From Micromonospora sp. WMMD1120 (GTDB taxonomy: Bacteria; Actinomycetota; Actinomycetes; Mycobacteriales; Micromonosporaceae): a stretch of DNA of 64,000 bases. The first letter of the stretch is position 1. Every line of letters starts with the position of its first letter. The notes below the pieces were generated by a model. The model was given only the letters and a program-made list of their open reading frames with translations. It made no database searches and was not told where the DNA came from. Both the position numbers and the translations under genes were made by a program. The stretch covers positions 6,916,001-6,980,000 of the forward strand of contig NZ_JARUBO010000005.1 in NCBI RefSeq assembly GCF_029626235.1, read 5' to 3'. Shown piece after piece: positions 52,871 through 53,372 of this stretch.

Positions 52871-52897
52871 GACACCAGCCGTCTGCCCGCTGTGACG
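52871..52897 (-). promoter_or_regulatory. ECF41-like promoter of the sigma gene
   Basis: Read on the minus strand: CGTCACA, 16 bp, then TGTC. This is one base from the ECF41 -35 consensus TGTCACA and near the CGTC-type -10. It lies 66 bp upstream of the sigma factor start, consistent with self-activation. Confidence 0.75.
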
Positions 52898-52931
52898 CCC
52901 GGAGGCTGTGGGCCCGGTCACCCGGTCGCGC

Positions 52932-52958
52932 TGTCACACCGGGCGAACCGGCGGTGTC
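52932..52958 (+). promoter_or_regulatory. ECF41-like promoter of the DoxX gene
   Basis: TGTCACA, exactly 16 bp, then TGTC, on the plus strand, 31 bp upstream of the DoxX ATG. The -35 is a perfect match to the ECF41 motif as I recall it, and the spacer equals that of the divergent promoter. Confidence 0.8.
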
Positions 52959-52988
52959 TCGTGGTCGACCCGAGACGGAAGGATTCCC

Positions 52989-53372
52989 ATGAACCTGGCA
53001 CTGTGGATCGCTGCCGGACTGCTGGCGGCGGTCGCCCTGCTCGCGGGCAGCACCAAGACATTCGTACCCAAGGAGAAGCTGGCGGCGACCCACGGCGGTG
53101 GGTGGACCGGCGACGCCAGCGTCGGGTTCGTCAAGACCCTCGGGGTCCTCGAACTCCTCGCCGCGGTCGGCCTGATCCTGCCCGCCGTGCTGGACATCGC
53201 GCCGGTGCTGGTGCCGGTGACGGCCGTCTGCTGGGTCCTGCTGATGGTCGGCGCGATCATCACCCACCTGCGGCACGACGAGGCGAGGTTCACGGTGCTG
53301 AACCTGACCTATCTGGCCCTGGCGGCCTTCGTGGCGTGGGGTCGACTCGGGCCCGAGCCGTTCGGCGGCTGA
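52989..53372 (+). CDS. DoxX-family membrane protein
   Basis: 127 aa with four membrane helices. WIAAGLLAAVALLAGSTKTFVPKEKL and KTLGVLELLAAVGLILPAVL carry the DoxX pattern. DoxX-like and carboxymuconolactone decarboxylase-like proteins are common ECF41 targets, and the divergent sigma factor with a matching promoter fits that scheme. It is thought to take part in redox or stress protection of the membrane, but the reaction is unknown. ATG at 52989 after GGAAGGA. Confidence 0.88.
   Translation: MNLALWIAAGLLAAVALLAGSTKTFVPKEKLAATHGGGWTGDASVGFVKTLGVLELLAAVGLILPAVLDIAPVLVPVTAVCWVLLMVGAIITHLRHDEARFTVLNLTYLALAAFVAWGRLGPEPFGG

Follow-up and report, generated by a model that had tools for sequence, protein, structure and literature searches.

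This locus raises the question of what controls an ECF41-type sigma factor and the DoxX-type membrane protein gene that lies divergent from it, and whether the pair depends on the sigma factor alone. ECF41 is a large and widespread group of sigma factors, and we know of no anti-sigma partner for it. According to the original prediction, matching promoters on both sides of the pair make up a small, self-contained stress circuit. This idea was followed up in the window, i.e. the whole 64-kb stretch of DNA that was analysed, and in related genomes. The window corresponds to positions 6916001-6980000 of contig 5 of its genome. From the comparison of sequences we consider it quite probable that positions 52871-52958 form a symmetric bidirectional control module, in which a self-activating sigma/target pair would be gated by Crp. 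The features concerned are the following:

50590-51879, plus strand: LtrA-family membrane protein gene (Pfam), convergent with the sigma-factor gene
51906..52829, minus strand: ECF41/SigJ-type sigma factor gene, 307 aa, with sigma2, WLPEP linker, sigma4 and C-terminal extension (TIGR02957, NF007214, 5xe7)
52871..52897, minus strand: promoter of ECF41 type for the sigma-factor gene, with -35 CGTCACA, N16, -10 TGTC (CGTCACAGCGGGCAGACGGCTGGTGTC; kept in relatives)
52908..52921, no strand assigned: GTG-N8-CAC (GTGGGCCCGGTCAC), putative Crp/GlxR-type operator (position from script; relatives; fit to GTG(N)6GNCAC)
52932..52958, plus strand: promoter of ECF41 type for the DoxX gene, with -35 TGTCACA, N16, -10 TGTC (TGTCACACCGGGCGAACCGGCGGTGTC; kept in relatives)
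52989..53372, plus strand: DoxX_2 family membrane protein gene, 127 aa, with a ribosome-binding-site-like GGAAGG before the ATG (PF13564)
53397-53732, plus strand: small reading frame downstream of doxX, without Pfam match
53710-54177, minus strand: small reading frame downstream of doxX, without Pfam match
54562-56082, plus strand: MerR regulator gene followed directly by an NAD-dependent epimerase gene (Pfam)

The sigma factor gives a full-length match with the SigJ-type family TIGR02957 (376.5 bits, cut-off 323.25) and 318.9 bits with NF007214 SigJ (cut-off 271), and its residues 17-295 align with the SigJ structure 5xe7. The linker between sigma2 and sigma4 reads YVGPWLPEPLL, that is, it contains the WLPEP motif named for ECF41 in PMC3426412 (Wecke et al. 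2012; this and the other papers are cited from the sections available). In a review, ECF41 is treated as controlled by its C-terminal extension (PMC8999054). The extension found here scores 22.8 bits with SnoaL_2, under the curated cut-off of 27, and the 5xe7 alignment extends through it to residue 295. It also carries the stretches DGGG and NPEKL, which we take to be the published ECF41 motifs. As start codon we read from the sequence the upstream ATG, preceded by GGAGG; a second ATG, 24 bp further in, would be a possible alternative. The nearest named relatives belong to Micromonospora, the sigma factor of M. tarensis being 89% identical. In the genome itself, four proteins score more than 250 bits with TIGR02957, and two of these exceed the cut-off. 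At another place in this genome (L006, C5:635153-638980; 968-995 and 1028-2340), a CMD-like gene is followed by an ECF41 paralogue; in front there is a TGTCACG-N17-CGTC site, with the near-palindrome ATGAGCGGGGTCAC just upstream of its -35.

On the other side, the DoxX protein covers the whole PF13564 (DoxX_2) profile with 75.4 bits (cut-off 26.3), and is encoded by one of three DoxX_2 genes of the genome. For the neighbours of the sigma-factor gene, Pfam gave DoxX_2, LtrA, MerR and epimerase, together with two ORFs without family. The adjacent gene is DoxX_2 and not one for a carboxymuconolactone decarboxylase, oxidoreductase or epimerase (COE), the usual neighbour in ECF41 loci. Since about 30% of ECF41 loci are without a COE gene (PMC3426412), a COE neighbour is typical and not obligatory.

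With respect to the promoters, (T/C)GTCACA-N16-TGTC had been described on both strands with the same spacing, and this is exact. The pattern YGTCACA-N16-TGTC occurs in the window at these two sites and at no others, in outward orientation and with N16 in both; 100 dinucleotide shuffles of the window gave a mean of 0.10 and a largest count of 1, with two sites in 0/100. The plus-strand -10 is followed by 30 bases up to the DoxX ATG (52989) and the minus-strand -10 by 41 bases up to the ATG of the sigma factor (52829); the two -35 elements are separated by 34 bp. Both sites match the published ECF41 promoter TGTCACA-n16-CGTC, with its spacer of 16 +/- 1 bp (PMC3426412); the -10 is here TGTC and one -35 is CGTCACA, and the sites printed in Table 5 of that paper include both TGTC and CGTC.

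It should be noted that the promoter pattern alone is weak evidence, because in its loose form it is hardly enriched over the genome: YGTCACA-N15..17-YGTC was found at 19 sites in 7.15 Mb vs 14 for the reversed pattern. The genome scan for the same motif, which had been proposed for defining the regulon, is consequently uninformative when the loose motif is counted, and the extended motif was used instead. TGTCACA-N16-YGTC gave 3 sites vs 0 reversed in the same genome, and YGTCAC-N15-GG-YGTC, which includes the extended -10 of the lineage, gave 26 vs 3; among these 26, only the two sites of the window have A at position 7. The case for both promoters is one of position, pairing and conservation. 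The part of the original prediction by which the sigma factor recognises its own promoter and that of doxX is supported, by inference, through the ECF41/SigJ type of the sigma factor, the match to the consensus, 16 of 20 comparable loci (see below) and the extended motif with A at position 7, found in the genome only here; recognition of both promoters is very probable.

Matching promoters on both sides are themselves a known arrangement, because Table 4 of PMC3426412 lists 55 divergent sigma/COE loci, of which 36 show a promoter in front of the sigma gene and 41 one in front of the COE gene. The new part appears to be a conserved Crp-type operator on the dyad, together with the portability of the module.

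The palindrome GTG-N8-CAC is flanked by 10 bp on either side (52898-52907 and 52922-52931), so it occupies the exact centre between the -35 elements. A single copy proves nothing, because the motif is common (25 in the window). The comparative set comprised 75 loci from a scan of named genomes and 30 loci taken from a DoxX search of 151 genomes of the genus, 79 of which gave a match; five of the 105 loci, without ECF match, were left out (L153, L177, L178, L180 and L182). Among the 30 DoxX-fetched loci, the sigma gene was divergent in 20 and downstream on the same strand in 6, and none was seen within the fetched DNA of the remaining 4. Promoter-like motifs on both sides (YGTCAM, spacer 15-17) were present in 16 of the 20 divergent DoxX/ECF41 loci of the genus, in all cases with 33-35 bp from -35 to -35. 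Three of the four exceptions (L172-L174) have CATC as partner -10, and by the same pattern L158 misses the sigma-side site.

When distinct loci were considered, GTG-N8-CAC lay within half a bp of the centre in 32 of the 33 with a gap of 33-35 bp (the exception is L193), and in none of the 15 with other gaps. At the ECF-side promoters, whatever the partner (58 distinct ones, from 62 before identical promoter stretches were merged), the palindrome ends 10-11 bp upstream of the -35 in 43; in 1000 rounds of letter shuffling the average was 0.107 and the highest count 2. Out of 576 triplet palindromes tried in this place with spacers of 4-12, GTG-N8-CAC was the commonest (43; the next reached 8, partly overlapping). 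A partner -35 at a gap of 33-35 accompanied the palindrome in 42/43 cases vs 1/15 without it, the partner -10 among the 42 being YGTC in 24 and CATC in 17. The CATC version, at the same spacing, was observed in L083, L084, L086 and L172-L174, among others (17/43 loci), and may represent an ECF41 promoter of lower strength or different tuning.

The analysis was extended to 94 distinct ECF41 loci, leaving out those below 100 bits and duplicate upstream stretches. The full composite GTGAC-n-GTGn8CAC-n-GTCAC, with the -10 ignored, is present in 51 of them and at least one half in 63 (11 on the partner side only and 1 on the sigma side only); in 31 it is absent on both sides. In Markov-resampled controls (200 rounds) the full module had a mean of 0.01 (largest 1) and at least one half 0.43 (largest 4). 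The bearers of the module include Micromonospora, Catellatospora, Pseudonocardia, Actinoallomurus, Actinomadura, Streptomyces, Nocardia, Streptosporangium, Nonomuraea and Catenulispora, which presumably represent about seven families. The architecture of two promoters with a central palindrome is near certain.

Other searches were independent of the sigma gene. Among 394 genomes of the class, the dual-promoter pattern with a gap of 20-50 bp was found in 22 and its reversed version in 0; 22 loci were fetched, and 19 of them contain an ECF41 relative. The gap was 34-35 in nine of the 22, the window being one of them, and eight of these nine have the palindrome; GTG-N8-CAC was found in 0 of the remaining 13. 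The gaps cluster at 34-35 and also near 23-24 and 43-46. Helical phasing, to which the apparent steps of 10.5 bp might point, is not claimed here, the other gap classes being without palindrome (0/13) and the numbers small. In L195, L199 and L200, DoxX is divergent from a CMD-like gene with a gap of 43-46 bp and a related, non-palindromic GTGANCCACGTCTC-like element; an ECF41 relative was found in L195 and L200. The composite without -10 was detected in 40 of 394 genomes (reversed pattern, 4), and an ECF41 relative was present in 18 of 30 loci fetched with it and not seen in the other 12.

Furthermore, 111 of 394 genomes contain the palindrome with YGTCAC-N15-GG-YGTC at a distance of 0-30 bp downstream, the reversed pattern giving about a dozen matches. 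Among the 150 matches listed, the spacer was 4 in 28, 10 in 26, 14-15 in 21, 24 in 11 and 0 in 9; several members of the last two classes resemble coding sequence by eye. Ten sites with spacer 4 or 14-15, from eight loci, were viewed: seven are upstream of an oxidoreductase-like reading frame, and seven of the eight loci have an ECF41 relative. Therefore, the site also occurs on unidirectional ECF41 operons, at other spacings. In L178 the version with spacer 4 stands immediately upstream of doxX and its promoter is complete, and in L171 palindrome and -35 precede doxX with the strict -10 missing. Two genomes of the window's order (L264 and L265) show two ECF41 genes and two Crp-site promoters about 2.1 kb apart, with spacers of 4 and 15 bp.

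Which protein could bind the palindrome? The Crp consensus of Streptomyces coelicolor is GTG(N)6GNCAC and that of Corynebacterium glutamicum GlxR is GTG(N)8CAC (PMC10033298). The window palindrome, upstream of the promoter, fits both, and 47 of the 48 distinct palindromes fit GTG(N)6GNCAC in one orientation. Among the matches listed, the full form GTGA-N6-TCAC was observed in 22 of the 28 sites with spacer 4 and in 9 of the 21 with spacer 14/15. Two strong HTH_Crp_2 (Crp/Fnr) proteins are encoded in the genome (70.9 and 61.7 bits). The product of the Crp candidate, L256, matches the CRP/FNR chains 3h3u, 3i54, 4cyd and 4byy with E below 1e-97, the first of which we take to be M. tuberculosis CRP. 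Its alignment with 3h3u is end to end, and the stretch vthdltqeeiaqlvgasretvnkaladfa (recognition helix) is identical. Binding of Crp at the central palindrome is, from these similarities, likely. Gel shifts of Streptomyces Crp on such sites repeatedly failed (PMC10033298).

The existence of two such proteins, and the fact that spacer-10 sites are only partly TGTGA-N6-TCACA, would also suit a different regulator of the Crp/Fnr superfamily, e.g. the second protein (L257), or one of another family with a similar palindrome. We regard this as unlikely, given that the candidate Crp has the RETVNK of the solved actinobacterial CRP where L257 reads RQSVNQ, and that most of the spacer-4 sites have the full form.

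Another aspect is the gene on the other side of the module. In the 43 loci with palindrome, the divergent partner, assigned by means of six query proteins and Pfam, is DoxX in 23, CMD in 13, MFS, FAD oxidoreductase and SDR in 2 each, and a BBE-type oxidase in 1; the count for DoxX is too high, since DoxX served as query for 30 of the loci. In a quick tree of 86 sigma factors (sequences below 230 bits or 230 residues left out), the module bearers switch partner at least 12 times, the module itself changes 7 times and DoxX needs 2 changes; these counts are rough because 36 of 83 inner branches are open and 18 starred. As far as this can be read from sequences, the control module seems to persist while the target gene is exchanged. 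In L175, L176, L181 and L183, FAD oxidoreductase, DoxX and ECF41 are consecutive on one strand, and such rows tie DoxX to COE-type operons.

A rival explanation is that the locus is just one more autoregulated ECF41 pair of the kind known since 2012, in which DoxX replaces the usual COE gene and the palindrome is a functionless by-product of shared descent. Divergent ECF41/COE loci can indeed have motifs on either side, as mentioned above; the loci compared are homologous, and thinning reduces the palindrome count, from 37/52 at 85% identity to 26/39 at 75% and 13/26 at 65%. After strict thinning the palindrome signal in column conservation is weak, because half of the thinned set is without palindrome. 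However, six bases and two spacers are constant where the N8 centre and the sequences of the spacers vary, the palindrome stays fixed despite the changes of partner, nearly all palindromes match the consensus of one known regulator, and the same kind of site is present on unidirectional ECF41 operons with other spacings, so that we consider this explanation improbable, somewhat more so than a different regulator. That the palindrome provides extra -35-like half sites for the ECF41 sigma factor, e.g. for loading a second holoenzyme, is very improbable: one half is frequently GTGAC/GTCAC, the core of the ECF41 -35, but a -10 at N16 from the halves was not seen in the sequences inspected, the opposite half is just CAC with variable neighbours, and Crp fits better.

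The control by Crp that we favour could operate as follows. The sigma-factor gene and the target doxX each have an ECF41-type promoter, the two being oriented away from each other, and active sigma factor would read both, resulting in positive autoregulation together with expression of the target. If transcription starts 6-8 nt beyond each -10, the single putative Crp/GlxR-type dimer site on the dyad, which is 10 bp away from either -35, would be centred at about -50 to -52 in both directions; for M. tuberculosis, CRP sites are reported to cluster between -60 and -40 (PMC4117774). Crp at the dyad might contact both polymerases, or clear their way, simultaneously, and in this manner gate the sigma/doxX pair by cAMP or energy state. 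Activation is slightly favoured over repression because the palindrome overlaps neither promoter. A single rigid Crp contact does not fit the spacing of 4 or 14-15 bp seen in other ECF41 operons. Whether actinobacterial ECF41 factors in general are wired into cAMP-Crp, through sites fixed 4, 10 or 14-15 bp upstream of their promoters, we consider evenly balanced.

If the cAMP-Crp reading is true, one Crp dimer on the dyad switches the sigma factor and a redox-type target together, the payload of this portable two-input cassette (CMD, DoxX, SDR, BBE-type oxidase, MFS) has been swapped in evolution, and the ECF41 family is not a free-standing one-component system in Actinobacteria. A Crp-type site locked to ECF41 promoters is a concrete candidate input for the family, and DoxX can be added, as judged from the promoters, to the list of probable ECF41 targets. 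The term "self-contained" is not supported for the circuit: the conserved palindrome exactly between the promoters points to an outside input, and the three further ECF41-like paralogues of the genome could cross-talk. Nor is the term "stress" supported, as a stress signal was not indicated here; according to the available sections of PMC3426412, no inducing condition was known for ECF41 as of 2012.

In openly licensed PubMed Central papers, ECF41 and DoxX together were not found, which is not proof of novelty, nor were ECF41 and cAMP together; in the available sections of those naming both ECF41 and Crp, a link between them was not found either. Like the ECF41/COE loci of PMC3426412, the locus has a sigma factor of SigJ type that combines the WLPEP linker with a C-terminal extension, and TGTCACA-n16-YGTC before both the sigma factor and its neighbour. 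Among those neighbours here that have a Pfam family, an anti-sigma gene was not noticed. The locus differs from the ECF41/COE loci in having DoxX_2 instead of a COE gene and, as far as those loci are described in the available sections, in the operator-like palindrome at a fixed place between the promoters. With M. tuberculosis SigJ (5xe7) the sigma factor shares the match over residues 17-295, WLPEP and the C-terminal domain, although sequence similarity is only moderate. As in the Crp regulon of S. coelicolor and the GlxR regulon of C. glutamicum (PMC10033298), there is a GTG(N)6GNCAC / GTG(N)8CAC palindrome and an orthologue-like Crp is encoded; unlike in these regulons, the site is here tied by fixed spacing to two ECF41 promoters, not to housekeeping-type ones. 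Finally, CRP sites of M. tuberculosis are also found between divergent genes, at -60 to -40 from the starts (PMC4117774). In the sections available these are not linked to ECF41 promoters, whereas the present locus has a single site at the same distance from both promoters assigned to one sigma factor.
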